DNA from: Globodera rostochiensis
Taxonomy: Eukaryota > Nematoda > Chromadorea > Rhabditida > Heteroderidae
Assembly (NCBI GenBank): GCA_018350325.1
Contig: JAEVLN010000006.1
Span: 3,524,056-3,588,055, forward strand
Reading direction: 5' to 3'
Length of the DNA: 64,000 nt
In this document: positions 33,801 through 56,424 of the stretch, one piece after another
Layout of the letters: each line of letters begins with the position of its first letter
Numbering within the stretch: the stretch's first letter is position 1
The notes under the pieces: generated by a model
Databases searched by the model: none
The model's input: only the letters and a program-made list of their open reading frames with translations
What the model was told of the DNA's origin: nothing
Program-made: the position numbers and the translations under genes

Positions 33801-36605
33801 CAGTCTCCATAAAAGGAGAGGTTTATTATTTAGCAATAAAATTGGAAAAACTGATCTATTTTTCAATAAGCGAGGCATGAAAAGACCATTTTGATTTCAA
33901 TTTCTTGTTGTTATTTGGATTAGAAACTTGACCGGTTGCCAGTCTCCATAAAAGGAGAGGTTTATTATTTAGCAATAAAATTGGAAAAACTGATCTATTT
34001 TTCAATAAGCGAGGCATGAAAAGACCATTTTGATTTCAATTTCTTGTTGTTATTTGGATTAGAAACTTGACCGGTTGCCAGTCTCCATAAAAGGAGAGGT
34101 TTATTATTTAGCAATAAAATTGGAAAAACTGATCTATTTTTCAATAAGCGAGGCATGAAAAGACCATTTTGATTTCAATTTCTTGTTGTTATTTGGATTA
34201 GAAACTTGACCGGTTGCCAGTCTCCATAAAAGGAGAGGTTTATTATTTAGCAATAAAATTGGAAAAACTGATCTATTTTTCAATAAGCGAGGCATGAAAA
34301 GACCATTTTGATTTCAATTTCTTGTTGTTATTTGGATTAGAAACTTGACCGGTTGCCAGTCTCCATAAAAGGAGAGGTTTATTATTTAGCAATAAAATTG
34401 GAAAAACTGATCTATTTTTCAATAAGCGAGGCATGAAAAGACCATTTTGATTTCAATTTCTTGTTGTTATTTGGATTAGAAACTTGACCGGTTGCCAGTC
34501 TCCATAAAAGGAGAGGTTTATTATTTAGCAATAAAATTGGAAAAACTGATCTATTTTTCAATAAGCGAGGCATGAAAAGACCATTTTGATTTCAATTTCT
34601 TGTTGTTATTTGGATTAGAAACTTGACCGGTTGCCAGTCTCCATAAAAGGAGAGGTTTATTATTTAGCAATAAAATTGGAAAAACTGATCTATTTTTCAA
34701 TAAGCGAGGCATGAAAAGACCATTTTGATTTCAATTTCTTGTTGTTATTTGGATTAGAAACTTGACCGGTTGCCAGTCTCCATAAAAGGAGAGGTTTATT
34801 ATTTAGCAATAAAATTGGAAAAACTGATCTATTTTTCAATAAGCGAGGCATGAAAAGACCATTTTGATTTCAATTTCTTGTTGTTATTTGGATTAGAAAC
34901 TTGACCGGTTGCCAGTCTCCATAAAAGGAGAGGTTTATTATTTAGCAATAAAATTGGAAAAACTGATCTATTTTTCAATAAGCGAGGCATGAAAAGACCA
35001 TTTTGATTTCAATTTCTTGTTGTTATTTGGATTAGAAACTTGACCGGTTGCCAGTCTCCATAAAAGGAGAGGTTTATTATTTAGCAATAAAATTGGAAAA
35101 ACTGATCTATTTTTCAATAAGCGAGGCATGAAAAGACCATTTTGATTTCAATTTCTTGTTGTTATTTGGATTAGAAACTTGACCGGTTGCCAGTCTCCAT
35201 AAAAGGAGAGGTTTATTATTTAGCAATAAAATTGGAAAAACTGATCTATTTTTCAATAAGCGAGGCATGAAAAGACCATTTTGATTTCAATTTCTTGTTG
35301 TTATTTGGATTAGAAAATTGACCGGTTGCCAGTCTCCATAAAAGGAGAGGTTTATTATTTAGCAATAAAATTGGAAAAACTGATCTATTTTTCAACAAGC
35401 GAGGCATGAAAAGACCATTTTGATTTCAATTTCTTGTTGTTATTTGGATTAGAAACTTGACCGGTTGCCAGTCTCCATAAAAGGAGAGGTTTATTATTTA
35501 GCAATAAAATTGGAAAAACTGATCTATTTTTCAATAAGCGAGGCATGAAAAGACCATTTTGATTTCAATTTCTTGTTGTTATTTGGATTAGAAACTTGAC
35601 CGGTTGCCAGTCTCCATAAAAGGAGAGGTTTATTATTTAGCAATAAAATTGGAAAAACTGATCTATTTTTCAACAAGCGAGGCATGAAAAGACCATTTTG
35701 ATTTCAATTTCTTGTTGTTATTTGGATTAGAAACTTGACCGGTTGCCAGTCTCCATAAAAGGAGAGGTTTATTATTTAGCAATAAAATTGGAAAAACTGA
35801 TCTATTTTTCAATAAGCGAGGCATGAAAAGACCATTTTGATTTCAATTTCTTGTTGTTATTTGGATTAGAAACTTGACCGGTTGCCAGTCTCCATAAAAG
35901 GAGAGGTTTATTATTTAGCAATAAAATTGGAAAAACTGATCTATTTTTCAACAAGCGAGGCATGAAAAGACCATTTTGATTTCAATTTCTTGTTGTTATT
36001 TGGATTAGAAACTTGACCGGTTGCCAGTCTCCATAAAAGGAGAGGTTTATTATTTAGCAATAAAATTGGAAAAACTGATCTATTTTTCAATAAGCGAGGC
36101 ATGAAAAGACCATTTTGATTTCAATTTCTTCTTGTTATTTGGATTAGAAACTTGACCGGTTGCCAGTCTCCATAAAAGGAGAGGTTTATTATTTAGCAAT
36201 AAAATTGGAAAAACTGATCTATTTTTCAATAAGCGAGGCATGAAAAGACCATTTTGATTTCAATTTCTTGTTGTTATTTGGATTAGAAACTTGACCGGTT
36301 GCCAGTCTCCATAAAAGGAGAAGTTTATTATTTAGCAATAAAATCGGAAAAACTGATCTTTTTTTCAATAAGCGAGGCATGAAAAGACCATTTTGATTTC
36401 AATTTCTTGTTGTTATTTGGATTAGAAAATTGACCGGTTGCCAGTCTCCATAAAAGGAGAGGTTTATTATTTAGCAATAAAATTGGAAAAACTGATCTAT
36501 TTTTCAACAAACGAGGCATGAAAAGACCATTTTGATTTCAATTTCTTGTTGTTATTTGGATTAGAAACTTGACCGGTTGCCAGTCTCCATAAAAGGAGAG
36601 GTTTA
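27893..36605. repeat. 139-bp satellite array, 62.7 copies
   Basis: GCGAGGCATGAAAAGACC recurs at exactly 139-bp steps (27893, 28032, 28171, 28310 ... 36511). 62 steps x 139 = 8618 bp, with a final 95-bp partial unit. Units from about 28032 to 32800 look identical by eye. Rare variants (GAAAATTGACC, CAACAAGCG) appear in the right third. The first unit reads GCGAGGCTTG. The monomer is AT-rich, has no open frame across units (139 is not a multiple of 3) and shows no conserved spacer/repeat alternation. It sits between a CLE 5' flank (36605-36810) and a CLE repeat block (27157-27892). Confidence 0.97.
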
Positions 36606-36810
36606 ATTTTAAATCGATTTTTTTATATTTCATTTTCACAAATAATTTTCACGTTTTACCCGGAAATATTTTCCTATTTTTTTTCTTTATATAATATCGC
36701 ATGGCTTTTTCCTGTTCCGATTCTTTTTTGCTCATTGGCCGGCCATTGCTAGAGTTTCTTTAAAAAATTATGGTAAAACATTTGGCTATAATGAGATTGT
36801 TTGTAGATAA
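36605..36810 (-). repeat. Inverted copy of the CLE copy A upstream flank
   Basis: This stretch is the near-exact reverse complement of 53583-53796, the sequence directly upstream of the intact CLE gene. Shared landmarks include GGCCGGCCATTGCTAGAG, AATCGATTTTTTTATATT and GGCTATAATGAGATTG. It marks the original 5' side of the minus-strand CLE copy now interrupted by the satellite. Confidence 0.9.
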
Positions 36811-37994
36811 TGTTGGGCATGATTTCATTCATCATCAAAAGACATCATTCCAACTTAAAAATTACTCTATTTCTAGAAAATCTAATGTTTTCATTGGAAT
36901 AATTAGCAAGATTCTTTACTTTTAATTGCACCCGAACGGTTACACTCAGCAAGTTGCAGTCGGCTAACGTCCTCAGCGGCAATTTTTTGAGCGTCGGCAA
37001 AACATAAACCACCCCCACCACCAAAGTAATGTTTAAAGTTTCTTTTTGTATAATTAATTTGTTGGCAAAAGCATTCGCAGCTCAAGCATGACGGGCCCGT
37101 ACACTTCAGTGCCGCCGTTTCACTGCTGCAACTTCAGGCCCGCGCAATTTCAGTGTCCGTTTTAGTGCTGTCACTTCAGTGCCGGTTATATGCGTTACTT
37201 TTGTGCCATGAATAAATAAAACATTAAATTGCAAATTAATTAAAATTCAGCCGCCAATGCCTCTTTTCTAGTTTGGACCAAAAAGCTCGGTTATGGTTAA
37301 ACGAGAATAATAGCGAGCCTGCGAGCGTCGGGGCCAATGCGTCCCACCCAAAAAAAGTTTTTTCCTTTTGGTGGGTTTATAATTTGAAAAATATAATTCC
37401 ATAACAATTCATATTATTCGTTCATCGAATAGCCAATTATAGATTATTCGCTAGCTTAGGTTTATGCATGAGCTTAAGCTCATTAAAAATACATATTGTG
37501 TGAAAACCTCTAGACCGGTTTTTTTTGCACTTTCATCCCATTAAAAAGGCAAAAAAATTGGAGGTATTTTTTGCTGGCGGCCTTGAAACGGCGCCGCGCT
37601 GCAGTGGCGGTACTGAAAACTGAAACATACCGGACCCAGGGATAATGCCGCCCGCAGTCCGTGCTGAGTCATTTCGCAAAATCCGCCAGTATGGGCGTTT
37701 TGCAAAATCCGCCATTTATTTAATTTAAACCAATTTTTCAATATTTATTTACTACAAAAATTAAAGGTTAAACGAAAGATTAAACTGTATCTTATCAATC
37801 ATAAATATATCAATCAATGATTTTTAAATGAACCAATTTTACAAATACTAAAATACAATTAATGCATACACCTTAGTACCCATACTGAAAATTTTTAATT
37901 ATTATTAAGAATTATTATAAATATTAAACTTTTAGTTTAAGCTATAAATTTACAATACAATAATGTGGAAGGCTTTTATACAAAGTAAAAAAAC
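36811..37994. other. Intergenic sequence upstream of CLE copy B
   Basis: No gene supported; open frames of about 60 codons at 36903 and 37533 (minus) lack domains. Near 37670-37720, ATCCGCCA words resemble in reverse the dispersed GTGGCGGATTTT motif also at 52990, 58264 and 61977. The last 90 bp (from about 37905) is shared with 52722-52800, not with the upstream region of CLE copy A. Confidence 0.5.
37943..37950 (+). promoter_or_regulatory. TATA-like element upstream of CLE copy B
   Basis: TATAAATT lies 52 bp before the ATG at 37995. It belongs to a block shared with 52722-52800, so copy B's upstream region differs from that of copy A. It may be coincidental in AT-rich DNA. Confidence 0.35.
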
Positions 37995-39478
37995 ATGGCC
38001 AAGAATGCAATGTTTTACCTGGCGATTTTGAGCGTTATTCTCACTCTCGTATTTGCTACAAATGAAAAAAAGGGTCAGTTTTCCCGACAAAAACGTTTAT
38101 GACCACCCACTAAAAAATAAATTTTAAAAAATTTTTTTGGCATTTTAATAGACCTAAAAATTGTATTGGACTTTTCTTATATTTTAACCTAAAATTGGCA
38201 TAAAGATAATTTAGAAACGGAGAACCAATCAACCGGCATTTTTGGAAAGGTCGGACGATTTGTGACCGTGGCACTTGCGATGTCGTCTCGTCTGGGAGGG
38301 GCTGGCGCATCCCGAGGAGGTGGAACTGTACATGGAGGAAGCTTGAAATCCAATCAATTGCCAAACAACAATTGGATGGTATCCGACCTACTGGTTGACC
38401 AAACAAAAAACAATTGTAATTTTACAGGCGCTTCCTCCTTCAATGAAGATAAAAAGTGCCGAAGTTGATGGCATACTGGTTGAACAGGCGCCTCCTCCTC
38501 CAAAGCAGATGAACTGCCGAAGTCGATGGCATACTGGTTGAACAGGCGCCTCCTCCTCCAATGTCGATGAAAAGTGCCGAATTCAATGTCAGAAATCCTT
38601 CTCGAAGAAACCTAGCAAAAACTGCTGAATATCTTGAAAACCTCGCTCAAAAAGTTCGCAAACTAAGCGACCTAAAACTTCAGCGGGAGGTGCCAGGAGG
38701 GCCCGGCCCAAAACATCACGAAGATGCAACTCTAAAACAAGTAAATCAAGTTTTGCCAGGAGGGCCCGACCCAAAACATCACGAAGAAGCAACTCTGAAA
38801 CAAGTGAAGCAAGTTGTGCCTGGAGGGCCCGACCCAAAACATCACGAAGAAACAACTCTTAAACAAGAGAATCGAGTTGTGCCTGGAGGGCCCGACCCAA
38901 AAGATCACGAAGAAACAACTCTGAAACAAGCAAATCAAGTTGTGCCTGGAGGGCCCGACCCCAAACATCACGAAGAAGCAACTCTGAAACAAGTGAAGCA
39001 AGTTGTGCCTGGAGGGCCCGACCCAAAACATCACGAAGATGCAACTCTGAAACAAGTGAAGCAAGTTGTGCCTGGAGGGCCCGACCCAAAACATCACGAT
39101 GATACAACTCTTAAACAAGAGAATCGAGTTGTGCCTGGAGGGCCCGACCCAAAACATCACGATGATACAACTCTTAAACAAGAGAATCGAGTTGTGCCTG
39201 GAGGGCCCGACCCAAAACATCACGATGATACAACTCTTAAACAAGAGAATCGAGTTGTGCCTGGAGGGCCCGACCCAAAACATCACGAAGATGCAACTCT
39301 TAAACAAGAGAATCGAGTTGTGCCTGGAGGGCCCGACCCAAAACATCACGATGATACAACTCTTAAACAAGAGAATCGAGTTGTGCCTGGAGGACCCGAC
39401 CCAAAACATCACGAAGATACAACTCTTAAACAAGTGAATCAAATTGTGCCTGGAGGGCCCGACCCAAAACATCACTGA
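37995..39478 (+). pseudogene. CLE-like effector, 13-unit copy with a 2-nt deletion
   Basis: Exon 1 (37995-38073) and exon 2 (38215-38378) match copy A: signal peptide MAKNAMFYLAILSVILTLVFA, then SSRLGGAGASRGGGTVHGG. The 49-bp second intron (38379-38427) is conserved. In exon 3, two bases are missing near 38510 relative to copy A, so the frame reaches a stop near 38540. The CLE frame is open from about 38546 to the stop at 39478, with 13 units; the first reads PGPKHH and the fourth PKDHE. A weaker acceptor (GTTGAACAG, ending 38545) would skip the lesion in phase, so the gene could still be expressed as a splice variant. Without transcript data I call it a probable pseudogene. CLE mimics act on plant CLV-type receptors outside the nematode. 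Confidence 0.75.
38687..39475 (+). repeat. CLE tandem array, 13 units of 63 bp (copy B)
   Basis: Twelve full 21-codon units plus a final 11 codons. The spacer varies among EEATLKQVKQ, DDTTLKQENR and others. It is more diverse than the array of copy A. Confidence 0.95.
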
Positions 39479-40137
39479 AGCAATATCAAAAGAGTGAAAG
39501 GAAATCGGCGGATGTCTTTGTAATTTCAATTTTTTCCTATCTTTCTTTTTCTGAAGACCAAATATCGGTGATGTCACTCATTTTCGGAAAACATTCTTTC
39601 TAATACTCGAACCCGACTTTTGTTTTGACCAAATTCGAACACGAGAGTTCAAACATTTATTCGAAAAATAAAACTTTTTAGTGACATTTAGACTACCTAT
39701 GTTAACATTGACGTTTTTACGATATTTTTTATCTGACAATTTTGATTGTTGGCATTTTAGTTCTGGAAATTTTTAAATAGCGTGATTTCGTCAAGTACTG
39801 TATCTTTGAGTTGGAATTGATAACTGTTGAATCTAAGTTTTGAATTTTTGACTCAATTTGTTAAGATTTGCAATCCAAATTTTAAAATACGGTAATTTTT
39901 TGAATCCATCGGTGCCGATCGGCACTTCCGAGAAGATCTGTTTTCGTGAAAAAATTTATCCAAAAATTCATAATTTTCTCTTAAGGCTTGAAAATGTTTA
40001 AAACCGGCGGAGTCTATCAGACCGCCGGACCTCTTATGAGACCAATTTTCGGCAAGAAACACAATTACTTTTTGCAATTTTTGGTGTAAAAAAAAGTCAC
40101 CTAACGTAAGTTCTTGCAAACTAAATTATAAAAAGGA
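39479..40137. other. CLE copy B 3' flank up to the retrotransposon
   Basis: 39479-39745 is similar to 55837-56110 (3' of copy A), so the duplicated block extends past the stop. Beyond about 39750 the sequence is unique and AT-rich. An 88-codon frame at 39853-40119 (minus) has no recognisable domain. Confidence 0.6.
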
Positions 40138-40642
40138 TGTGGCGGAAATGCCCAAAATAATTAAAGACTGGGGGGTTTTTGAACACTTCGGGTTTTACAC
40201 CAAAGGTTCGACCGAGACTTCCTCTCGGACCGAGATCACTTTCTCGGAATTGACCTGAAGAGAACGAAGGGGAAGGGGGGAAGGGTTTCGGGAGGAGTCG
40301 AACCCTTTGAATTTTGACCGAGAAATCTCGGGACCAAACAACCAACTCTTTGCTAAAAGCGATAGAGTTTATTCAAAAAGAGCAAAGAGAAAAAAAGGTG
40401 ATCGAAATGGATGGATCCAAATCGGTTAAAGGGTCGAATGATTGGTGAGTGGTGTGATCGGTATGAATGGTTGGATTAATGGTTGAATGGTACAAAAGTG
40501 ATCAAATCCCCTCTTTTTATAGGTTAAAAAAGGGGCGTGGCATGGGGGCACAAATTTTTAAGTGATCAAAGATCACGGAAAAAAAAGGAAAAGAAATCAC
40601 TGAATCGATGGAAATCAATTTCCCTCTGTCGCTTTGGCGACA
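40138..40642 (-). repeat. 3' LTR of the BEL/Pao element
   Basis: 505 bp. Appears identical to 51561-52065 line by line. In element sense it starts TGTCGCC and ends CCGCCACA. No clear polypurine tract precedes it, only a short GGCCGGAGCC stretch. Confidence 0.95.
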
Positions 40643-40661
40643 GGCTCCGGCCAGCACGAAG

Positions 40662-43600
40662 TCAGCGGTGACGGGCCCTCTTTTTGCAACAGTGCTCCGG
40701 ACATGAAGAGTTTGAGCTGGAAGATATTCGCCGCTTTCGTCGACGGCGTCCCAGGGGTTCGGAATTACCTCCTGTTAGCACAGGAGGAATTATTTTCTCC
40801 AGTCTTCCAATGGCCGCCTCCAAGGCGGCCTGCTGCAGACGAATTGTTTCCTGAAGGGACTTGATCCCCTTCAAGACTTCTTGAGCGGACAGAGAATGTC
40901 CGCTGGAGGTGCCGGACGGACCGGGAAGATCAGAATCTTCCGGTCTCTTGCTGGACTCAGTGGTTGGGCCGGTTGGTCCAACCACCTTGCTCAGGGAAAC
41001 GCTCGAGGGCATGAAAATTGTTTTCATCCCAGCGCGCTCATCTTTTGCTGGGGCCATCTGGACCTTAAGGGGACCTTTGTTCGGGGAAGGCGGACGAATC
41101 CGTTCCTTTTCTGGTGCCTGTTCCACGGGAAGTCTGTCCTTCCCGTAGAAGGGGCACTTTCTTGTCCCTCTTCTGTGCCCGATGATTTTGCAAAGTTGGC
41201 ACGTGGGGGGTCTTCGTTTACCCCCCACTTCCTCCCCCACCGGTCTCTCCCGGGCCTCTTGGTCAATAAAGTCCTCAACCCTGGCCTGAGCCGGGTCAAA
41301 TTTCCGTGAAAGGGGAGGAGGACCTCCTCCCTCTTTTCCTGAAGCATCACTCACCTCCTTTGAGGCGTCCTCCAAATCCACACTGGGATCGGATAATTCT
41401 CCTTCCGAAGAGGAGGAAGAAGACATTTTTTCAGGGATGAAGAAAGGAAAAGGAGGAGTAGCTTTTCGGAGGGGTTTAAGTACCTCCCAAAAAACAGCAA
41501 GTCGTACTGACTCATCGTTTTGGGCACTTCCCCAAATATGATCAACCCCCTCAAAAAGGTCATTTTTCGAAATGACCTTTTCCCTTTTCATATTTTGCAA
41601 AAAAATGCAAATGTTATTCCATTCCATATTTTTTTGTGATGGACCGATCATTTCCAAATTTGGTGAAGGGCAAAATGCTTCTATTTTTGTGAGAAACAAA
41701 AGCAGAAAGATCATTGCTCTTGCTAATGATCTAAAAAATGGGGGCCTTTCTTGAAGGCCTGCTCCCACATTTTGTACCTGGCAAATTTCAATGACTTCCA
41801 GTGGGTAAAAGTTTACATGAATCCGGTTTCCCCCGGGGTTGTAACCACCGTAATCCATCAAGCATGGAGTACGAGGGTTTATGGGGATCCTTCTTCTTAA
41901 GAATTGATGGAAGACGGTCCATCCAGGCCGGAATTGGATCCCGGACGCCCCATATTGAGAAAAGCCATCAAAGTTCAATTGAACTTGATTGTTTTGGAGG
42001 TGGACTGTTCTGAGAACAGCCCCGTCGTTTTCAATTAATCTACGCAATTTCTTTTCAATTGCGCGGCGATCGTTTGGGTCTTTATACCAGGATTGTCCGC
42101 CATGTCCTTGACGGTTTATCCAGTCAATCAATCTTTCGGTTCTTTCAAGGGGATTTCCTCCCCCGACTCTTACTTCTTGGGGTGGGGGACGGTTAGGCCG
42201 TCTGTAAAAAATACCAGGTGCCACCTGGACAGGTTCTCTCCCATTTGGGAGGACTGGCTCTTCAAAGGCCAGGTTTGAAAACTCTTCCTCTACAGAGGAA
42301 GCAACTGAACTGGTGGAACCAAAGTTCAACCGTCTTTGCAAAGGAACCGGCATTGTTTGAAAACAGGGGGGAAGTGACTGAAACAGATTCATCAGCTCCC
42401 TTTTATATTGGTTTCGGGGGGCGTGTCCCCAGCCAACTTTTTTGTTTGGCATTTTTTCCATAGGATCACTGGTCGAAGACCAAAGATCAGGATGACTAAT
42501 TTTGGTACAGAAGCTGCTGGTAAAGCAACTCGTAACCAAAATTAACTGAAGGAGAACTCCCATCAAGGAGTTTCCTCCATTGTTTCTCCCCCTTTGGGTC
42601 AGAGCTTCATCGTTTTCTCTTTGATGACAGAGGTCAATGACCTCCAAGGGATAATAGGTATTTCTTCTGGGATCAAATCCCGTCAGAACAACTGGGAGAA
42701 CCGAATCAACGTTGATTCCGTACCCATTAAATTGGTTTAACACTGAAAGACCCGAACGTATCATCATTTGAGATGCCTCTCGTTCTGAGAGGCCTAGGAA
42801 ACCAACTGTTTCCTCAGAGTTTAAGTGGTTTGTACGGAGCGAGAAAGCCTCATTCGTCAGGATATCCTGAAGAAGTGCTTCCGCCGATCTCCGTCCCCTT
42901 TCGTACCATTGTGGTCCACAGACCCGTGTGAACCATTCATTCAAAGGTTCACGCTCATTAAGAGGCCAAACATGGGGAGGCGGATTCCAATTCTGACCAA
43001 CGGGACTTGGAGTCCGTTCCTCCAGCCCTCCTCTTTGGTCTGGAGAAGGATCCAGGCGTTCCTCCGTGGGCTCTAACCAATTTTCCAAATCCTCAATCGG
43101 GAATTCTCCCATTTCTGGGGTGGGAGAAACATTAAAAACTTGAAAAGCTTCTTCGTCTTCCGGTAATTCCTCCGGAGGATTTTCGAAACTTTCGAAAAAA
43201 ATCTGGTTTTCGACTGGATCGACATTCTCTCGTTCCCAAGGATTGGGTAAACGATTATTTGGACGTCTCCTTTCAGGACGGTTTGCAGCATTATCTGTAA
43301 TTTCTCTAAGGGGAGAACGACGCATTTTGGGTTGAGGGTTTGAATCGAAGTTAAGGTTTTTCCGCAGTGGGTAGGTAGGTAAATGAGAAGGGTTGGGTCC
43401 GTCTTTTATACCCCCTTTGAACATCACGTGACTCATGCCTTGCGTGGCAAAATTTTTCCGGAGGGTGAATCCATATCCGAAGGATCCTCCCCCCAACAAA
43501 AATAGCACGGCCATCTGAGTCACCTTTGTTGACCTTTGGTTAATCAAGACACCTGATATGAACTTCCATGTTCTAAAAACAGGTGAAATTTTAATAAAGA

Positions 43601-46600
43601 TTGTAAGGCAAATGATGCCTACAACCATTATCATTAAAAAAATGAGGCTTGTTCGCAAGCCCATCAAAGACCAAAGACTAGCCTTCCAGTCGAAATCCAA
43701 ATCCAACCATCCTGCGTGGACTGAATTAAAAAGTTTTTCGGACTTTCTAGGGCCGAAATCCTCCTGCTGGCGAAGGGATAAGTAATTCAAAGTTCCTTCA
43801 AGAAGGAACTTTGTCTTTCCTGCTAAGCAATCCACTTGACAAGTAGTGTCAATCATGGCCCTTACAAAGGGCAATGTCACACGGCTGTGTGAGAAATTGT
43901 GGTTTGATTGACACTTAGTTGAGAAATGAGTGCCATCCTCGCAGTTAATTTCAGCAATAGCATTGCCTAACGAAGTTATGCAGTCGAAATTGAATTCTGC
44001 TCCTGTTGAGCATTTGTAACACCCGGTTAGATTTTTCGGCACAATTGTGCAGAGGTTTTGAGTAAGTACCAAAGCCAACTGTAATCCTTCAATTTGAAGG
44101 TGTAATTGAATTGGACTGAAACCGGTAAGGGCAAAGACTCTTCGCCCCACATTTCGAATTTGATGATTGACAATGTCCAACGGGAGTCTTCGCTCGGGAC
44201 TTTCCATCATTTTCTCGAGATTTAGAGAACGGCAATTGCAGTTCACTGAACCACCTGAATGGTCAGGTATACAATCTGAACATGCTTCCATGCCCAGTGT
44301 ACAATTAAAATCCAGGGCCTCCTGTTGGTCCCTGCAATGGAAATCGTCGGTTAAGGTCTCTCTGGCGAGAGCCATATTGGTTCCATCGAAAATGAAATCC
44401 GAATTGAGGATAGGTGCGGGTGGAAAAGTCACTCCAATCGGAGTAATACTAATATTATTCCACTTTAATGTCCGTCCGGGTCGGAGGTATGTGTTGATGG
44501 ACACTGGTTCTGCCAATGTGTCCAATTTAATAGAAGCATGTATCACGAATTCCCATGAGTTACAGCCTAAGAATTCATAGGCGACTCTGGATTTGGGTTT
44601 CGCGTACCAACGGTAAAAGAGGCAAGCACTTCCCGCCAAGAAGCATTTGTTGCCCCAAAAGGCTGTGCTATCCACACAAAAAGAATTGCCGGGATGCTCG
44701 TTCGCATCCCGTAGCTCCGGTATCCGGGTATTAGACTGGACTTGGCTGCAATAGGTTCCAACGCAAGAACCCATTTTCGGGCACCTCTTGTCGGACAACA
44801 GTCCGACAGAGTAAGACCGTAGCCAAGCCCTTGTAAAGCTTAGACACTCTAAAGCCAAAGCTTTGAGAACGATTTTAATTGAACCGAGGGCAATTCCCTC
44901 TTCTGTTTTTAACAGAAGGGTATTTGTTTGCCCTGCTGGCAAAAGGGCCAGTGTAGCCGTGTTTTCCACGGTACATTTCAAATCCGTAGCCGTTTTGAGG
45001 CAACTGTTTGATTGTGCCATTATGGCCACGGTTTCTGCCCCTCCCTGGACCAGGGGGAGCAGAAATTCTCCGAGGATCACAACGAATGCCGCGGACCGAA
45101 AAATGCGACGCGAAGTCCAATTTTGAGAGGCCGAATTTCGGGTAGAGTTCCTGCTTCTACGGAAGAAGGGTCGTCTTTCCGTGTCTTCCCTTGAATGGGA
45201 AACTTGGTTCTGGAAGACAAAATTGATAATCGGGGTAAAGAGTTGAGTTATCAACCAGATGACCATTCTGACAGCCGAAAAAAGGATTTTTAAGGATGAA
45301 AGGATCAAAAGGCCCATGCTTAACAAAGAAAGGCAAAGTCCTCCCGCAAGCATGGAAGCAATCAATGGATTGCAAGTCGGGTTGGCTAGTTGTTCCACGC
45401 ACAAGGTACAATCGATGAGTACACACTCATTGACTGGCGGACATGAAATCTCTTTTTTAAACATGTGTTTGGAGTCCACCCAAAAATGTCCCTGACATTG
45501 GTAACTATTTACGAGTACCTCAACCGGTAAGTCATAAATCAGTTTGCGGACATTTTTGTGGATGTAACACTGTTCCGCACAGCAAAGTTCAATTTTCTTG
45601 ACTTCGGGTGGGACGAGTAACGCAACCCCTCGAGGGCTGCATGATAACCCACATTCTTCACAATGGTCCATTGGATAGGCCAAGGAAGAAAGGGTGCCGA
45701 TCATAGTCAAAGCCATTATGATTAGAGGGATTGGAGGGACGTTAGCCCACAATTTCCCTTTGGTGAATGCTCTGAAGCTTTCTTCCCTGGGTTGGGGCGT
45801 GTCCTCCACTGCTTTCGAGGGTGGATCCTTGGCCCAAACCCTTCCTTTGGTAAGTGCCTGATATTCTTGTGCTGTGGTTTGGGAAGACGACACTTCCGCT
45901 GGTTCGGCCATCTCTTCCACCTCCAGTACCGGTGGAGGGTCTTCTTCTAGTAGTTCGATTTCTGGACTAACCTCCAACGGGATTATCCGACTGACGGGTC
46001 GTGTTAACACGGTCCGCCGGGGAAGGTCTCTGAACCTTCTTTTTTCCGAACCACGGACCGGAATTTCCACTTTAACGCTCCGGATAGCGCCGGGCTGTCC
46101 GTGAAGTTCAATGATTTTTCCCATTGACCATTGATTCCGGGGGACAAAGTCTTCAGCTATGAGGACAATCATCCCTTCCTTAGGTTCTTCCCGGGTTTGA
46201 AGTCGGGGGCCTTTGTGCTCCCACTTTGATCTTTCCCGAAGGAGAAGCAAATACGAACTGTACCACTTCTCCCAAAAGGAGTTGTGTGCCTCCCTTAAGG
46301 TTTGAAAACGGGCGGCAAGTCGCTGCTGGGTGGATGCTCCTCTTTCAGGAACATTGATTTCCGAGGTTGTAGTTGGCCAATCAATTTGGACTTCCGGTTG
46401 AAGAAAATCCACTGGCCGAAGCGGTTGTGGCCCATCGTCCGCATCCGAAATGGATGTAATGGGACGATGGTTGAGCGTGGCCTCCACCTCAGCGACGAAA
46501 GAATTCATTTCATCGTAGCCAAGGATTTTTCGTCCTAACGTTCGCTTGAAACAATTTTTGCACACCTGGACGAGGCGTTCATAAAACCCGCCTGCCCAAG

Positions 46601-49600
46601 GACTTATTTGTGCAATAAATTTCCACCGAATTTTACTGAGGGCTAGAAATTCTTCTACTTCCTGGCCCGGTCCTGGGGTGGACAATAGTTCCAGAGTTTT
46701 CTCGGCCAATTTGAATGAAGTTGCATTGTCACTCCAGATTATTTCTGGTTTGCCCCTCCGACTAATAAATCGTCGGAAGACATTCAAAAGTGATTCGGCT
46801 GTCGTATCCAGCATTGCTTCTAGATATACAGCTCGCGTTGCGAGACATGTTATTAGTATTATCCATGACTTGACTTTCTCCCCGGCCAAACGGACTTCGG
46901 TTGGACCTAAGAAATCAATGCCAATGGATTGAAAAGGTGCGTGCCGTCGCACTCTTTCCTTTGGTAATTGTGGCATTGTTGGCAATGCCAATGGATAAGC
47001 GTTGATTCTTCGACATCTTCGGCACTCTTTCAAGACTCGTTTTACTGCCGAACGAGCTTGAGGTGCCCAATGCTCACTTAGGAACTCAGTGAGGGTGGTG
47101 TCAACCCCCAAATGATGGCGCCTTTGATGGCATTTGAGGATGATAAGTTTGAGGATGGCTGAATGTTTGCTGAGGAGAATGGGGTGAGCGAACCCGTAGG
47201 GTTGGTCACTCCTTTCTACCCTGGTTTTCAACCGAAGGATTCCCTCTTCATCAATGGAGGAAGGAAATTTTTGGAGGTTTTCAGCATCATCCATTTGGTC
47301 CATGCGGATAACGAGTTGTTCCGCTAGAAGAACGTCTTCTGCTGTAAAGGAGCCTTCCCGCGAAATGCGGGCGACTGCCTTTCGGCGATTTTGAATGTTA
47401 GCTGGACAAAGCTTCCCTGATTTGATAAATCTCAAGCTCAAAAATCTGAGGATCGTCATCATGATCCGAACAGTGTGAGTCCAAGAACTGAATCTTGAGA
47501 CTTCAAAAAGGGGTATTTCCTGAGGGTTTTGGGTATGAGTTAGGGCTAAGAAGTTAACTTCTTTTGCCGTCTCTTGTCCGTTCCCTGGATTGTCGGGAGG
47601 TTCTCCCTCCTTACATTCAAAGGAAAGTTCATCTGGCCATTGGGTTTCGGGTTTGGAAAGCCAGGGAGGTCCTTCCCACCAAAGTAAATTTTGGTGAAGT
47701 TCCTCCGGAATAGCTCCCCTCGTGGCAATATCCGCCGGATTTTCAGCCGTGCGGACGAAATGAAAGGTGCAATCCGCCTTTCCCCGAATTTCTTTGAGCC
47801 TTCGCTCAATAAATTGTGGGTGGGTTTCCTTTGAGGCGACCCAACTCAGGGCAATTTGAGAATCGCTCCACAAGTGTGAACTTACAATTGGCCTTTGTAA
47901 TTGCTCTCCTACGAATTTTAACGCTCGAGACCCTATGAGAATGGCCAAAAGTTCCATTCTTGGGATTGTCAGCGCTTTTGAAGCATTTTTTGGTTTAAGA
48001 CGGTTCTTCGAGAAAATAAGCCAGGACTGGACCTTGTCCGTGGTTTCTACACGAAGATAGATTGCCGTTGCAAACGTGTGTTTTGAAGCATCCGCAAATG
48101 CATGTAACTGAAGGAGGCCTTCTCCTTTCAACATGGTCCTTCGCGGTATGCGGAGGACTTGATTTTTCCAATTTTCTTGGAGGATAATCCATCGGGTTTT
48201 GTCCTCCTCCGGGAGGGTATCGTCCCACCCCTTTTTCTCTTCCCAAAGAGTTTGGAAAAAGAGTTTGAAAGGCTGGATGCATGGACCCATTATTCCCAAA
48301 GGGTCAAATAAAGACGCGAGGAAACTCAACACAAACCGGCGAGTGATAGGCTTAGATAAATCAATTGAAGGGAATTCAAAAACTATTTCGTCTTTATGAA
48401 TGTCCCAAATAAGACCAAGGACTTTGACTTTGGGTTTGTCCAATCGGTCTTCCAATGGAATTTTCTCCATTACTTCTTCGGAGTTAGTGATAAACTCTCG
48501 AAGATTGAAACAACCTTCCTTTAAGATTGCTTTTGATTCTCGATATTTGGACATAGCTTCTTCGGGTGTTTCACACCCAAGGAGGGCATTGTCCACATAA
48601 AGCGATTCGGCCAATTCTTTGGCCGTTGCTGAATCATAACTTTTCAGGTGATGCTGAAGTGTAGCCGCCAAAATGAATGGCGAGCTTATTACCCCAAAAG
48701 CTACCCGACAAAATCTGAATATCTTCAGATTTTCCGGACTTGGAGGCTTATTAATGTCCTTGAGCCACAAAAACTTTGTGACCTCTCTGTCCTCCGGCTC
48801 CAACGATATCTGGAGAAAAGCCGCTTGGATATCGCAAAGAAGCGGTAAGGTGGGGCATCGGAATTTCAATAACATACCCATGAGGTCGGGTAATATGACT
48901 GGGCCCCGGAATAAGCAATTATTGAGACTGTTTGTTCCTCGGGTGTGGGCACTTGCATCGTAAACGACGCGAAGTTTTTTACCCTTTGCCAACACTCCCT
49001 GATGGGGGATGAAGTGTTCTAAGGTACCTGGCCCTTTTTCAGCTTTTTCAATTATCCCTTTGGACAATTGCTCTTGGATTGTGGTATCATATTGTACCAT
49101 GAGCTCCGGGGAATTTCGGAGTTTATTGACCGTAGACATTAACCGAGAAAATGCCATTCGGAAATTAGAAGGAAGGTCCGGGACCTCCTCTTTCCATGGC
49201 CATTTCACGGAATATCGTCCGTCTTTTTCCCGACGGATCGATTTTTGGAACAATTGCATGGCGGTTTGGTCATCATCCTCATTTGGATCGTCTTTAATTC
49301 CCAAAGACTCCAAATTAAAGAAATATTCAATTTCTTTTGTGTTAGGCATTTGGTCGACGTTGCTTTCGTGGATGGCCATCATTGATAGCCCTGGTTTTGG
49401 CCCTTCGGGTCCAAAATCTGATTCTCCGTTCACGAGAGGTCCCAGGGTTGTTTGAATGACGAACAATCCTGGGGAAACCTCTTTTTTCCCTTGGAAAAAT
49501 TGCCAAAAGTGGCGGGCACTGATTAGGATTTCTGGTTCCTCCCGTGAGAACGTTAATGCTTGACTTATGTCCCGTTCCTCGGGATTGAAATCTTCCGAAT

Positions 49601-50375
49601 TCCATTCTACCATTTTGAATGGGGAAGCAATTTGTTCCGTGCGGTTGAGAAGGATTTCTTCCCATTTGTTATCGGCTCTTTTGAGCTGAATAGAAAAGAC
49701 TGGGGAATGAAACCTCATAGGTCCATTTCTGTCTCCTCCAAACCCGAAGACTTCCATTTCCTCGGAGGTTACTTTATGCGGTTTAAGCTTGCGGATTAAG
49801 GAATCCGAAATGTAAGAAGTCTGACTTCCCGGATCAAAAAGAACAGGGACTTCAAACCAAGCTCGACGGTTTCGTTTTGACGTGACCGTCAACCTGCGCG
49901 TCATTAAAAACGCGTGAGGTTTTTTGACGACATTTGTCAAGACATTGGTACCGATTTCTGGTATCGGGGATTTTTCCAACGGTTCCTCCCGTTGGGTGAC
50001 CACGTGGTTTTGTGACGTTTTCGTCTCTTTTATCTTTGATGCCGTTGGCCCTTTTTGGTTGGGACCCTGACGGGATATATTTGCTTTTGCTTCATGATAA
50101 CAAATCATAAAGTGGTGAGTTTCTCCACATAAACTGCATTTTCTCTGTGACGTACATTGCTGAGAATTATGGCCGGTTTGAAGGCAATTAAAACATCTTT
50201 GTTGCTCAGTGAGCCGTTTTCTTCGGGCTCCTGGAGTTGAGTACTTTGGACACCGGCTCGGGGGGTGTCCTTTGCCTTCACAGAGCGAACACACCCTATT
50301 AAACGCCTTCTCTCTACGGGGAGGTTGAGACTGGTGGTTAATCGTGGAAAACGATCGGTTTTGTTGTGAGGGCAT
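40662..50375 (-). CDS. pol: Polyprotein: PR-RT-RH-IN-envelope-like-PAZ-like x2-C-terminal module
   Basis: 3237 codons without a stop. Order by residue: three CCHC knuckles (29-92); protease DPGS at 181; RT with LLCDIQAAF (512-520) and YVDN (593-596); RNase H from HAFADASKHTFAT (about 758); integrase HHCC-like zinc region (about 1087-1122) and D1154/D1216/E1266; DUF5641-like tail (about 1350-1465). A two-part Cys-rich glycoprotein-like region follows (1552-2265), with a leader-like segment at 1552-1570 and membrane segments near 1676-1705 and 2237-2262. Next come PAZ-like regions (2478-2596 and 2748-2870), each followed by a hydrophobic stretch (2601-2623, 2887-2902). The end has a Ser/acidic tract, a CX2CX4HX6C knuckle (3059-3074), a coiled coil (3162-3196) and a basic tail. 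Subgenomic splicing is likely for the 3' products. RT has YVDN where YVDD is commoner. Confidence 0.9.
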   Translation of the reverse strand: MPSQQNRSFSTINHQSQPPRREKAFNRVCSLCEGKGHPPSRCPKYSTPGARRKRLTEQQRCFNCLQTGHNSQQCTSQRKCSLCGETHHFMICYHEAKANISRQGPNQKGPTASKIKETKTSQNHVVTQREEPLEKSPIPEIGTNVLTNVVKKPHAFLMTRRLTVTSKRNRRAWFEVPVLFDPGSQTSYISDSLIRKLKPHKVTSEEMEVFGFGGDRNGPMRFHSPVFSIQLKRADNKWEEILLNRTEQIASPFKMVEWNSEDFNPEERDISQALTFSREEPEILISARHFWQFFQGKKEVSPGLFVIQTTLGPLVNGESDFGPEGPKPGLSMMAIHESNVDQMPNTKEIEYFFNLESLGIKDDPNEDDDQTAMQLFQKSIRREKDGRYSVKWPWKEEVPDLPSNFRMAFSRLMSTVNKLRNSPELMVQYDTTIQEQLSKGIIEKAEKGPGTLEHFIPHQGVLAKGKKLRVVYDASAHTRGTNSLNNCLFRGPVILPDLMGMLLKFRCPTLPLLCDIQAAFLQISLEPEDREVTKFLWLKDINKPPSPENLKIFRFCRVAFGVISSPFILAATLQHHLKSYDSATAKELAESLYVDNALLGCETPEEAMSKYRESKAILKEGCFNLREFITNSEEVMEKIPLEDRLDKPKVKVLGLIWDIHKDEIVFEFPSIDLSKPITRRFVLSFLASLFDPLGIMGPCIQPFKLFFQTLWEEKKGWDDTLPEEDKTRWIILQENWKNQVLRIPRRTMLKGEGLLQLHAFADASKHTFATAIYLRVETTDKVQSWLIFSKNRLKPKNASKALTIPRMELLAILIGSRALKFVGEQLQRPIVSSHLWSDSQIALSWVASKETHPQFIERRLKEIRGKADCTFHFVRTAENPADIATRGAIPEELHQNLLWWEGPPWLSKPETQWPDELSFECKEGEPPDNPGNGQETAKEVNFLALTHTQNPQEIPLFEVSRFSSWTHTVRIMMTILRFLSLRFIKSGKLCPANIQNRRKAVARISREGSFTAEDVLLAEQLVIRMDQMDDAENLQKFPSSIDEEGILRLKTRVERSDQPYGFAHPILLSKHSAILKLIILKCHQRRHHLGVDTTLTEFLSEHWAPQARSAVKRVLKECRRCRRINAYPLALPTMPQLPKERVRRHAPFQSIGIDFLGPTEVRLAGEKVKSWIILITCLATRAVYLEAMLDTTAESLLNVFRRFISRRGKPEIIWSDNATSFKLAEKTLELLSTPGPGQEVEEFLALSKIRWKFIAQISPWAGGFYERLVQVCKNCFKRTLGRKILGYDEMNSFVAEVEATLNHRPITSISDADDGPQPLRPVDFLQPEVQIDWPTTTSEINVPERGASTQQRLAARFQTLREAHNSFWEKWYSSYLLLLRERSKWEHKGPRLQTREEPKEGMIVLIAEDFVPRNQWSMGKIIELHGQPGAIRSVKVEIPVRGSEKRRFRDLPRRTVLTRPVSRIIPLEVSPEIELLEEDPPPVLEVEEMAEPAEVSSSQTTAQEYQALTKGRVWAKDPPSKAVEDTPQPREESFRAFTKGKLWANVPPIPLIIMALTMIGTLSSLAYPMDHCEECGLSCSPRGVALLVPPEVKKIELCCAEQCYIHKNVRKLIYDLPVEVLVNSYQCQGHFWVDSKHMFKKEISCPPVNECVLIDCTLCVEQLANPTCNPLIASMLAGGLCLSLLSMGLLILSSLKILFSAVRMVIWLITQLFTPIINFVFQNQVSHSREDTERRPFFRRSRNSTRNSASQNWTSRRIFRSAAFVVILGEFLLPLVQGGAETVAIMAQSNSCLKTATDLKCTVENTATLALLPAGQTNTLLLKTEEGIALGSIKIVLKALALECLSFTRAWLRSYSVGLLSDKRCPKMGSCVGTYCSQVQSNTRIPELRDANEHPGNSFCVDSTAFWGNKCFLAGSACLFYRWYAKPKSRVAYEFLGCNSWEFVIHASIKLDTLAEPVSINTYLRPGRTLKWNNISITPIGVTFPPAPILNSDFIFDGTNMALARETLTDDFHCRDQQEALDFNCTLGMEACSDCIPDHSGGSVNCNCRSLNLEKMMESPERRLPLDIVNHQIRNVGRRVFALTGFSPIQLHLQIEGLQLALVLTQNLCTIVPKNLTGCYKCSTGAEFNFDCITSLGNAIAEINCEDGTHFSTKCQSNHNFSHSRVTLPFVRAMIDTTCQVDCLAGKTKFLLEGTLNYLSLRQQEDFGPRKSEKLFNSVHAGWLDLDFDWKASLWSLMGLRTSLIFLMIMVVGIICLTIFIKISPVFRTWKFISGVLINQRSTKVTQMAVLFLLGGGSFGYGFTLRKNFATQGMSHVMFKGGIKDGPNPSHLPTYPLRKNLNFDSNPQPKMRRSPLREITDNAANRPERRRPNNRLPNPWERENVDPVENQIFFESFENPPEELPEDEEAFQVFNVSPTPEMGEFPIEDLENWLEPTEERLDPSPDQRGGLEERTPSPVGQNWNPPPHVWPLNEREPLNEWFTRVCGPQWYERGRRSAEALLQDILTNEAFSLRTNHLNSEETVGFLGLSEREASQMMIRSGLSVLNQFNGYGINVDSVLPVVLTGFDPRRNTYYPLEVIDLCHQRENDEALTQRGRNNGGNSLMGVLLQLILVTSCFTSSFCTKISHPDLWSSTSDPMEKMPNKKVGWGHAPRNQYKRELMNLFQSLPPCFQTMPVPLQRRLNFGSTSSVASSVEEEFSNLAFEEPVLPNGREPVQVAPGIFYRRPNRPPPQEVRVGGGNPLERTERLIDWINRQGHGGQSWYKDPNDRRAIEKKLRRLIENDGAVLRTVHLQNNQVQLNFDGFSQYGASGIQFRPGWTVFHQFLRRRIPINPRTPCLMDYGGYNPGGNRIHVNFYPLEVIEICQVQNVGAGLQERPPFFRSLARAMIFLLLFLTKIEAFCPSPNLEMIGPSQKNMEWNNICIFLQNMKREKVISKNDLFEGVDHIWGSAQNDESVRLAVFWEVLKPLRKATPPFPFFIPEKMSSSSSSEGELSDPSVDLEDASKEVSDASGKEGGGPPPLSRKFDPAQARVEDFIDQEARERPVGEEVGGKRRPPTCQLCKIIGHRRGTRKCPFYGKDRLPVEQAPEKERIRPPSPNKGPLKVQMAPAKDERAGMKTIFMPSSVSLSKVVGPTGPTTESSKRPEDSDLPGPSGTSSGHSLSAQEVLKGIKSLQETIRLQQAALEAAIGRLEKIIPPVLTGGNSEPLGRRRRKRRISSSSNSSCPEHCCKKRARHR
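41766..42134 (-). other. PAZ-like region 2 of the retroelement polyprotein
   Basis: Residues 2748-2870. It shows the same order as region 1: IEKKLRRLIENDGAVLRTVH, NFDGFSQYGASGIQF, TVFHQFLRRRIPINPRTPC and NFYPLEVIEICQVQ. The TV-x-x-[YF]F, TPC/LPC and YPLEV-x-x-C landmarks occur with PAZ-like spacing. It is more complete than region 1 and diverged from it, so the duplication is not recent. Confidence 0.65.
42588..42944 (-). other. PAZ-like region 1 of the retroelement polyprotein
   Basis: Residues 2478-2596. Order of elements matches the Argonaute PAZ domain: a helix with AEALLQDILTNEAFSLRTNH (cf. the KGLKVRTTH position), a GFLGLSEREAS turn, a SVLNQFNGYGINV segment (cf. SVADYFKxxYxI), a proline-valine strand LPVVLTGFDPRR (cf. 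LPCVxVG), and NTYYPLEVIDLC, the most PAZ-like stretch. Assigned by eye. Confidence 0.6.
43581..45722 (-). other. Envelope-like glycoprotein region of the polyprotein
   Basis: Residues about 1552-2265. A short leader-like hydrophobic stretch, a Cys-rich ectodomain, a membrane span, then an Arg-rich linker, a second hydrophobic leader, a larger Cys-rich ectodomain with several N-x-S/T sites, and a final membrane span. This Gn/Gc-like two-part layout resembles the phlebovirus-type glycoproteins known in some nematode Pao elements; that relationship is inferred from layout and Cys pattern, not a search. It is open throughout. Confidence 0.65.
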
Positions 50376-51487
50376 TACCCCACTTTCACTTCTCTGGTTG
50401 GGTCTCCATGGGTGTCTTGATTGAGACTGGTTGGAAACCGAGAGTTCATGACTTTTACCGGGAAATTCCTTCCCTGGTTTGGTGAAGGAGATAAGAAAGC
50501 CTTAGCTTTTTCTTCTCCCCGGAAGATTTGTGCACATCTCTGCACTTCTTCCTTTACTTCCACAATGGAAGTAATTGCTTGGCGTAGATCGGAACAACTG
50601 AACGTTCCTCCTGAAGCCATCTCCTTCTCAATCACCTGGGTGAGAAGGTTGAATGGAAGCTTGGACTTGATGGTAGAGGCCATGAACTTGTTTTGTTCAT
50701 TCTCTCCAAAGTCCAAAAGCTGGTGACAGAGCCTTTCAACGGCCTCTGAAAACGTTCTTAAAGACTGAGTTGAATCAGTTGGCTTGGGTAGATGGAGAAG
50801 CTCAGCCTGGAGCGACTCTATCATCGTTTTTTCATCCCCAAACCTTTTCTTCAGAATATCTACTACCCGAGGGTAATTTTCATCTGACGGTGGGTATAGA
50901 TCTATCGCCCGACGGGCGATGGATCTTTCTGGGAGACATCCCAACAGATAAATGTGTTTTTTGAAATCTTCAATCTGAAGACTTTCAACGGAACTCTCGA
51001 AGAGCTTCCAAAAGAGAGGCCACTCTCTGGATTCTCCCGAAAACTTCGGAAGAGTGATTGGGGGAAGTGTCACATCATGGCGAGGATATGACACTTGCTG
51101 GTTAACATTTGACTGCGTTGGGGGTTGCGGAATTGGTCCGCCATCCCCAATTTCGGAGAGGCCTAAGGCCCCTTCGATGGTGTCCACCAGCCCTCTGGCT
51201 TGGTCAGTCCAGCTCATGAAGGGTTTCCCTTCCGGCTGGAATTCTCTGTAAGCCACCTGTTCATCGATCAGGACTTGGCCTTTGATGCGTAGGAAGACTG
51301 CTTCCCACTTATCATTGTATTTCTCTAGAAGAGAAATCGCTTTGCGGAGGTTTTGTCTTTCCGCTAATAGATCCGCCCGAACACTTTGTTCCTCCAGGTC
51401 CTTGCCCAAATTCTCTTGGGCTGTCTCAATGTACAGCTTGAGTCGCACGATGATTGGTGCGATGCTGATTCGGTAGAGCTCACTCAT
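50375..51487 (-). CDS. gag: BEL/Pao Gag-like protein (DUF1759 region)
   Basis: 370 residues from the first ATG at 51487; the frame is open upstream into the primer-binding site but has no earlier ATG. The N-terminal half is helical and charged (ETAQENLGKDLEEQ, ISLLEKYNDKWEAV). The DUF1759-like core starts near residue 146 with LPKFSGESREWPLFWKLFES and continues with HIYLLGCLPERSIARRAID, the usual capsid-like part of Pao elements. There is no zinc knuckle in this frame; the knuckles are at the start of the next. The stop codon and the next ATG share one base (TAATG at 50377-50373), so frame 2 may be reached by termination-reinitiation. Acts in particle assembly. Confidence 0.88.
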   Translation of the reverse strand: MSELYRISIAPIIVRLKLYIETAQENLGKDLEEQSVRADLLAERQNLRKAISLLEKYNDKWEAVFLRIKGQVLIDEQVAYREFQPEGKPFMSWTDQARGLVDTIEGALGLSEIGDGGPIPQPPTQSNVNQQVSYPRHDVTLPPITLPKFSGESREWPLFWKLFESSVESLQIEDFKKHIYLLGCLPERSIARRAIDLYPPSDENYPRVVDILKKRFGDEKTMIESLQAELLHLPKPTDSTQSLRTFSEAVERLCHQLLDFGENEQNKFMASTIKSKLPFNLLTQVIEKEMASGGTFSCSDLRQAITSIVEVKEEVQRCAQIFRGEEKAKAFLSPSPNQGRNFPVKVMNSRFPTSLNQDTHGDPTREVKVG

Positions 51488-51539
51488 TGCTCTCGCCGAT
51501 CTTTTGGTTTGGAGGGTCGTGCTTACGACTGGAAGCTGA

Positions 51540-51555
51540 CCCCTACGGGGCTCCA
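51540..51555 (-). other. Primer-binding site
   Basis: TGGAGCCCCGTAGGGG in element sense, 5 nt after the 5' LTR. It begins with TGG as expected for pairing with a tRNA CCA end. The implied tRNA 3' end is CGGGGCT-CCA. The tRNA-like sequence at 53423-53495 also ends CGGGGCT but differs at three of 16 positions. Confidence 0.65.
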
Positions 51556-51560
51556 AATTT

Positions 51561-52065
51561 TGTGGCGGAAATGCCCAAAATAATTAAAGACTGGGGGGTT
51601 TTTGAACACTTCGGGTTTTACACCAAAGGTTCGACCGAGACTTCCTCTCGGACCGAGATCACTTTCTCGGAATTGACCTGAAGAGAACGAAGGGGAAGGG
51701 GGGAAGGGTTTCGGGAGGAGTCGAACCCTTTGAATTTTGACCGAGAAATCTCGGGACCAAACAACCAACTCTTTGCTAAAAGCGATAGAGTTTATTCAAA
51801 AAGAGCAAAGAGAAAAAAAGGTGATCGAAATGGATGGATCCAAATCGGTTAAAGGGTCGAATGATTGGTGAGTGGTGTGATCGGTATGAATGGTTGGATT
51901 AATGGTTGAATGGTACAAAAGTGATCAAATCCCCTCTTTTTATAGGTTAAAAAAGGGGCGTGGCATGGGGGCACAAATTTTTAAGTGATCAAAGATCACG
52001 GAAAAAAAAGGAAAAGAAATCACTGAATCGATGGAAATCAATTTCCCTCTGTCGCTTTGGCGACA
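51561..52065 (-). repeat. 5' LTR of the BEL/Pao element
   Basis: 505 bp. In element sense it carries CCTATAAAAAGAGGGG (51931-51946), a good TATA box, and further down TTGAATAAAC (around 51790-51798), a polyadenylation signal. This is the expected U3-R-U5 order. Confidence 0.95.
51931..51946 (-). promoter_or_regulatory. LTR TATA box
   Basis: Minus-strand TATAAAAAG in the 5' LTR, about 140 bp upstream of the AATAAA signal at 51791-51796. Likely drives the genomic transcript. Confidence 0.7.
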
Positions 52066-53582: not shown

Positions 53583-53825
53583 CATCCTTACACTACAAAC
53601 AATCTCATTATAGCCAAATGTTTTACCATAATTTTTTAAAGAAACTCTAGCAATGGCCGGCCAATGAGCAAAAATGAATCGGAACAGGAAAAAGCCATGC
53701 GATATTATATAAAAAAAAAAAAATAGGAAAATATTTCCGGGTAAAACGTGAAAATTATTTGGGAAAATGAAATATAAAAAAATCGATTTAAAATTTTTTT
53801 ACAGAAAGCGATGGCACATAACGAC
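53583..53825 (+). promoter_or_regulatory. Upstream region of intact CLE gene
   Basis: The first part (to 53796) exists inverted at 36605-36810. The remainder, with the TATA box, is found only here, so copy A alone appears to keep the original promoter. No ATGCCA hexamer (the dorsal-gland promoter word described in Globodera) was seen in it on either strand. Confidence 0.5.
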
Positions 53826-53833: not shown

Positions 53834-53909
53834 CAGCTCATTAGTGCAAGAAAAGCCATCACATTCCCATAAAATCCCAATAAAAACTTCCCCAATAAAG
53901 TGAAAAAAC

Positions 53910-55836: not shown

Positions 55837-56424
55837 AGCAATATCAAAAGAGTGAAAGGAAATCGGCGGATGTCTTTGTAATTTCAATTTTTCCTATCTT
55901 TCTCTTTCTGAAGACCAAATATCGATGATGTCACTCATTTGTTCGGAAAACATTCTTTCTGATACACGAACCCGACTTGTGTTTTGACCAATTTTGAACA
56001 CGAGAGTTCAAACATTTTTATTCAAAAAATAAAAATTTTTTAGTGACATTACCTATGTTAACTATTTTGATGTTTTTAAGATATTTTTTATCCGACAATT
56101 TTGATTGTTGGCTTCGGGGCAATAGTATTTATCCTTAAAGAACTTTGCCGAAACAAAAAAAAATGAAAAAAATTTTAAAAATTAGGTTTTCTTACTTTAT
56201 ATTAAATTTAACAAAATTTTTGAAAGCGTGAAAAATTAAAATTCTTCTTTTTAAATTTTGTAAATATTTATAAAAAGCTTCAGAATGTTACTGATCCAAG
56301 CTTGTTCAAAAATCACACGTGATCTCGGTCGTAAATTTTTTAGGTTCAATAAATTTGTGCGCAATTTTCTTAAATAGCATTAATGTTTTATTTTTTTCTT
56401 TTATTTATCATTTAAATAAAATTT
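55837..56424. other. 3' flank of CLE copy A
   Basis: 55837-56110 is shared with the 3' flank of copy B (39479-39745). After that the sequence is unique and AT-rich. AAATAAA words near 56025-56030 may serve polyadenylation. No gene seen. Confidence 0.6.

Follow-up and report, generated by a model that had tools for sequence, protein, structure and literature searches.

To our knowledge, the PAZ domain, with which Argonaute proteins grip small RNAs, has been described only in Argonaute/PIWI and Dicer proteins, the very machinery that keeps mobile elements silent. Viral suppressors of RNA silencing keep small RNAs from host Argonautes, and we know of no suppressor of the PAZ type. The described system nearest to the locus considered here is Atlas virus (PMC9094657), which belongs to BEL/Pao and is endogenous to the hookworm Ancylostoma ceylanicum. 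Our locus is a BEL/Pao-type retroelement on the minus strand of a 64,000-nucleotide stretch of the Globodera rostochiensis genome (contig JAEVLN010000006.1, positions 3,524,056 to 3,588,055), hereafter the window, in which it occupies positions 40138-52065. Like Atlas virus, it encodes a nematode BEL/Pao polyprotein with a phlebovirus-type Gn-Gc envelope (PMC9094657). Unlike Atlas virus, its reading frame runs 976 residues beyond the final membrane span of the envelope, and two PAZ-like domains lie in that stretch; the term PAZ is absent from the main text of the Atlas virus description (PMC9094657).

How do these domains compare with the PAZ proteins already described? They resemble Argonaute PAZ (PF02170, with structures from human AGO1/2 and Drosophila Ago) in predicted fold, in the order of conserved sequence elements, in a YYPLEV-type end and in the residues at the H271 and F312 positions, but differ from it in that the element has no Piwi match, that two domains share one polyprotein, that both fall below Pfam detection, and that the Y311 position is non-aromatic. 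They also resemble the PAZ-only proteins P0004-P0039 of Globodera, Heterodera, and Meloidogyne in having PAZ without PIWI, although those proteins are short and separate. A literature search covering the titles and abstract openings of the papers listed, with few subscription papers, found no description of a PAZ-bearing mobile element, Maverick/Polinton included. On the basis of sequence comparison and predicted structure, what is new here is PAZ cargo in a BEL/Pao element of the phlebovirus-envelope kind.

Two PAZ-like domains beyond the envelope

The extension is part of an uninterrupted minus-strand open reading frame (ORF) of 3237 aa at 40662-50375, and the two PAZ-like regions that a first-pass annotation had placed in this frame were both recovered there. 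Past the last (Gc-like) membrane span of the envelope (residues 2243-2261, 43593-43649; hydropathy 2.99) lie PAZ-like domain 1 (residues about 2476-2583, 42627-42950), a hydrophobic segment (residues 2604-2622, 42510-42566; hydropathy 1.8), PAZ-like domain 2 (residues about 2742-2865, 41781-42152), and another hydrophobic segment (residues 2884-2902, 41670-41726; hydropathy 1.77), all on the minus strand. The landmarks named in the annotation are present (LRTNH/LRTVH, GLS/GFS, SVLNQF/TVFHQF, LPV/TPC, and YYPLEVIDLC/FYPLEVIEIC), but two of its spacings need correcting: the third landmark reads S/T-V-x3-F, not x-x-F, and the last reads PLEV-x3-C, not x-x-C. The two domains are mutually homologous: 32% of 136 aligned columns are identical, with E 1e-17 for the pair compared alone and 5.6e-10 genome-wide. 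Joint duplication of each PAZ with its trailing hydrophobic segment was unsupported (score 25; mean of shuffled sequences 24).

What identifies these regions as PAZ? When 810 six-frame tiles of the window were scored with an Argonaute-only PAZ profile, ranks 1-4 went to tiles overlapping the two regions (14.6, 13.2, 10.6, and 10.5 bits), and the next tile scored 3.8. This profile gave domain 2 14.6 bits and domain 1 13.6, against 5.1 for the best of 1000 shuffled copies; a Maverick PAZ profile gave domain 2 24.7 bits. A two-row profile made from domains 1 and 2 matched PAZ families by profile-profile comparison, and the comparison of the two-domain profile with 36 short PAZ proteins yielded E 3.1e-7, which falls to 5.3e-6 after two relic rows are added. 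The AlphaFold2 model of domain 2 (predicted local distance difference test [pLDDT] 78.8) matched PAZ structures in the PDB, and its predicted fold is an OB-like barrel with a PAZ insertion.

Several results weigh against this identification. Sequence searches of Pfam, NCBIfam, and the PDB with each domain alone returned no PAZ, and neither did the two-row profile against the PDB. Domain 1 did not rise above shuffled copies with two Maverick profiles and was weak alone by hhalign (E 3.4e-4 and 0.0088). The alignment behind the domain 2 model included 25 PAZ-family proteins as rows, so the model is not an independent test, and a two-row model (pLDDT 46.5) had no PAZ among the 50 Foldseek rows listed for it. 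Weak matches to DUF2536, splicing factor 4, and IF1 in single-domain searches were not significant. No match at E <= 0.001 came from a viral structure library, and no relative from an IMG/VR scan that was confirmed for domain 2 alone. Neither domain reaches the curated 28.8-bit cut-off of PF02170 or is among the 35 PF02170 matches in the genome; we therefore file them as divergent PAZ-type domains and not as curated PF02170 members.

Could the motifs resemble those of PAZ by chance, in a protein without the PAZ fold? This is what the lack of a direct Pfam, NCBIfam, or PDB sequence match would lead one to expect, but the first four ranks among the tiles, the margin over shuffled copies, the profile-profile matches, the predicted fold, and the related remains in other elements (see below) make it very improbable. 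Taken together, profile comparisons and predicted structure show homology of both domains to Argonaute PAZ. For domain 2, its profile and genome matches and its predicted structure give good support to an identity as PAZ; for domain 1 there is support too, mostly by way of domain 2 and the Argonaute profile. The claim of PAZ domains inside a BEL/Pao element is thus borne out by profile, profile-profile, and predicted-structure evidence, even though the check by profile and structure searches that came with it was divided: profiles and the domain 2 model matched PAZ, whereas the single-domain Pfam and PDB searches and the two-row model did not.

Relatives in other retroelements and in Maverick/Polinton loci

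Is the PAZ extension found in other elements of this genome? At the DNA level, the PAZ stretch matches nothing else in the genome. A search for PAZ-like stretches in other Pao elements, which the first-pass annotation had proposed, turned up remains in two places (C17 and C23) and a weak stretch in a third (L061), but no PAZ in five of the six elements examined. C17 is a decayed relative with parts of both domains and, by eye, of the tail as well; C23 is a piece of domain 2 with remains of gag, pol, and envelope nearby. Between domain 2 and the C17 relic, 39 of 89 residues agree, and codon positions 1, 2, and 3 agree at 50, 63, and 32 of the 89 codons, respectively. Because positions 1 and 2 agree more than position 3, this codon comparison shows that the amino-acid sequence of domain 2 was constrained in the past.

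Related envelopes occur at 30 places, including the window's own, and the 3 kb downstream were examined for six. In L061 (C1), a frame of 3879 aa, a weak PAZ-like stretch with SVARYF stands in the matching place after the envelope. With the retroelement profile it scores 7.3 bits in the full frame and 11.4 as an excised 146-aa piece (best of 1000 shuffles, 4.1); the Argonaute profile gives it only 1.9 bits, and Pfam has no match to it. The near-identical L058 and L059 (C67 and C31) have a knuckle-like motif and a long tail of repetitive sequence, with no PAZ found, and in L060, L062, and L063 the frame closes 139, 78, and 36 codons past the envelope. Apart from L061, none of 265 frames searched scored above 2.9 bits. 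The envelope elements differ, then, in what comes after the envelope.

The domains are linked to Pfam PAZ by an ORF (C45) that lies among Maverick/Polinton-type genes, namely DNA_pol_B_2 and an adenovirus-type protease. In a tally of 30 of the 35 genomic PF02170 matches (five were left out), 15 had Maverick genes within the 3-kb locus, 13 had a PIWI match within 10 kb (several of these being exons of one gene), none had both, and two had neither. The C45 ORF accounts for one of the two, and since Maverick genes occur in its wider locus, the final split is 16 Maverick-side, 13 Argonaute-side, and one remaining match. The latter (L011; G000:C5:2617651-2617848) has no PIWI or Maverick genes found nearby, and our guess is that it is Dicer. 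PAZ-only genes stand beside PolB, protease, or capsid-like genes at L046-L049, L007, L010, L014, L015, L018, L020, L022, L024, L025, and L027-L032, where capsid-like is our own label for ORFs without a Pfam hit. DNA_pol_B_2 is over its cut-off in L047 and L049 and Peptidase_C5 in L049 only; the Maverick PAZ of L049 scores 32.1 bits with PF02170. A protein-database search with one Maverick-side ORF gave 84 candidates, including the 36 short PAZ proteins P0004-P0039, 30 of which carry a precomputed PF02170; the named PAZ-only proteins among them come from the three genera listed above, and UniRef labels several "PAZ domain-containing protein." The evidence for a Maverick-type setting of PAZ-only genes comes from this genome, in which, as judged from sequence, PAZ is a passenger of two unrelated kinds of mobile element.

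Where did the domains come from? A nematode WAGO donor, which the annotation had in view, was not established. In a tree of 20 rows, the three retroelement rows group together (99/99), as do the Argonautes (97/95), but because of long branches the former could not be placed among the Argonaute and Maverick rows. The best-scoring profile is that of the Maverick L016/L020 group for domain 2 and that of Argonautes for domain 1, and the top genome match of domain 2 outside retroelement copies is a Maverick/Polinton PAZ gene (E 1.2e-5).

Architecture and setting of the element

The assignment of the host element to BEL/Pao was confirmed by its set of Pfam matches (Peptidase_A17, RVT_1, rve, DUF1759, DUF5641, and Phlebovirus_G2), by identical long terminal repeats (LTRs), and by a 5-bp duplication. 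Gag, a Pao-type peptidase, reverse transcriptase, and integrase all lie between the LTRs, as in BEL/Pao elements (Belpaoviridae). The 505-bp LTRs (3' LTR 40138-40642, 5' LTR 51561-52065, minus strand) are the same at 505 of 505 bases, begin with TG and end with CA, and have AAGGA on their outer flanks; these features indicate a young, structurally complete insertion. The LTR has 11 more matches in the genome, all shorter or diverged.

The minus-strand Gag ORF (DUF1759; PF03564, E 5e-21) spans 50375-51556, and its stop overlaps the ATG of the second ORF in a TAATG at 50373-50377, possibly a termination-reinitiation site. By Pfam, translation, and hydropathy, the second ORF encodes, in order, zinc knuckles (three motifs at its start), protease (DUF1758, a weak match), reverse transcriptase, Peptidase_A17, integrase, DUF5641, envelope, and the C-terminal extension. 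The envelope is of phlebovirus type (Phlebovirus_G2, E 1.8e-64, with Phlebo_G2_C in the same piece). The extension continues past the PAZ-like domains with a tail zinc knuckle, CQLCKIIGHRRGTRKC (41154-41201, minus strand), which has the motif pattern and scores 20.4 bits with zf-CCHC_6, below the 22-bit cut-off, and then a tail with an arginine/lysine-rich end, read from the translation (40665-41150, minus strand). The ORF stops 19 bases short of the 3' LTR.

Searches of protein databases with C-terminal pieces (~8000 candidates per search within a set length range) found one match only, the UniRef gene model P0003 of the same species. It has 72 of 74 residues in common with the C-terminal piece in the best local alignment, and 100% identity is listed over the database match. 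Another UniRef protein of G. rostochiensis is identical over 188 residues to an ORF elsewhere in this assembly, and both matches point to that species as the very probable source. The P0003 model of the element omits part of the envelope and ends within domain 1, which hides the PAZ domains in that annotation.

Repeats surround the element. On either side of it, at 38564-39619 and 54481-55852, a 63-bp unit is repeated in tandem, and these arrays contain long ORFs on each strand; a 139-bp array lies at 36000-36694. Two further repeats lie around it: inverted copies (92-98%) at 36605-36806 and 53593-53795, separated by ~17 kb, and direct copies (99%) at 37982-38281 and 53897-54196.

RNA-binding pocket and possible function

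Could the domains still bind RNA? We take the 3'-end pocket of AGO2 to consist of H271, Y279, F294, Y311, and H316 (numbering per the AGO2 chain). Aligned aromatic pocket residues, proposed in the annotation as a test, were found in part: both domains retain the AGO2 residues at H271 and F312, but the Y311 position is Gln in both. Outside the two domains, the H271 position is His in the C17 row and Gln in the weak C1 row, F312 is matched by Phe in all five retroelement rows, and the Y311 position is Tyr in the C17 and C1 rows and His in the C23 fragment. At the Y279 position domain 1 has Val and domain 2 a gap, each with a Phe two columns on, in a part where the alignment is not firm. Domains 1 and 2 have Ile and Phe, respectively, at the F294 position, and Tyr and Arg at that of H316, where the ALG-type Argonaute L004 also has Tyr. 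This mixed conservation makes RNA binding plausible.

We give a probability of about 0.5 to the reading that this element, whose envelope is of phlebovirus type, deploys the two divergent PAZ domains ahead of its zinc knuckle and basic tail against host small-RNA silencing. The PAZ modules would be released or kept at the membrane and would bind the 3' ends of small RNAs or else compete for partners in silencing, so that host small-RNA defence against the element would be blunted, as by a silencing suppressor; the likeness to viral suppressors is one of possible effect only. Interference with host small RNAs, whether by occupying their 3' ends or through competition for partners, appears to be the likeliest role, the main argument being that two unrelated kinds of silencing-targeted element carry PAZ. 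The PAZ-only genes in Maverick elements of this genome speak for a common use of the domain against small-RNA pathways, or within them. Two points count against it: the hydrophobic segment past domain 1, if membrane-spanning, would put domain 2 in the lumen, away from cytosolic small RNAs, and the pocket changes, the Gln at the Y311 position among them, tell against 3'-end binding.

Those same changes open another reading, in which the PAZ fold was kept but RNA binding lost, leaving protein-protein modules (e.g., decoys for Argonaute or Dicer partners) or spacers. Replacement of Y311 in both domains, changed or unaligned residues at Y279 and elsewhere, and strong divergence from the PAZ rows speak for such a loss, but the His and Phe retained at the H271 and F312 positions, the Tyr at the Y311 position in C17 and C1, and the Argonaute-like Tyr at the H316 position of domain 1 make it doubtful, if a little less so than the next possibility. 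This is that PAZ, zinc knuckle, and basic tail serve the element's own RNA—by packaging or chaperoning it, or by holding an RNA or primer 3' end in the particle. The extension does join PAZ-like, zinc-knuckle, and arginine-rich parts and, being in one frame after the envelope, could reach particles. We nevertheless regard this use as unlikely: three zinc-knuckle motifs already stand at the start of the second ORF, and of the six other envelope elements examined, three close within 36-139 codons and two have a knuckle-like tail with no PAZ found, so that PAZ seems dispensable for the basic cycle.

Extended to both kinds of element, the anti-silencing reading becomes more tentative: PAZ may recur as anti-silencing cargo among the selfish elements of cyst and root-knot nematodes, whether BEL/Pao and Maverick elements captured it or passed it to one another, and may act by holding or hiding small RNAs or by competing with host Argonautes. 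The presence of PAZ in a young retrotransposon and in Maverick-type loci raises the testable question of whether selfish elements turn parts of the silencing machinery against their hosts. A further suggestion is that some "PAZ domain-containing" annotations in plant-parasitic nematodes are transposon genes and not host RNA interference genes.
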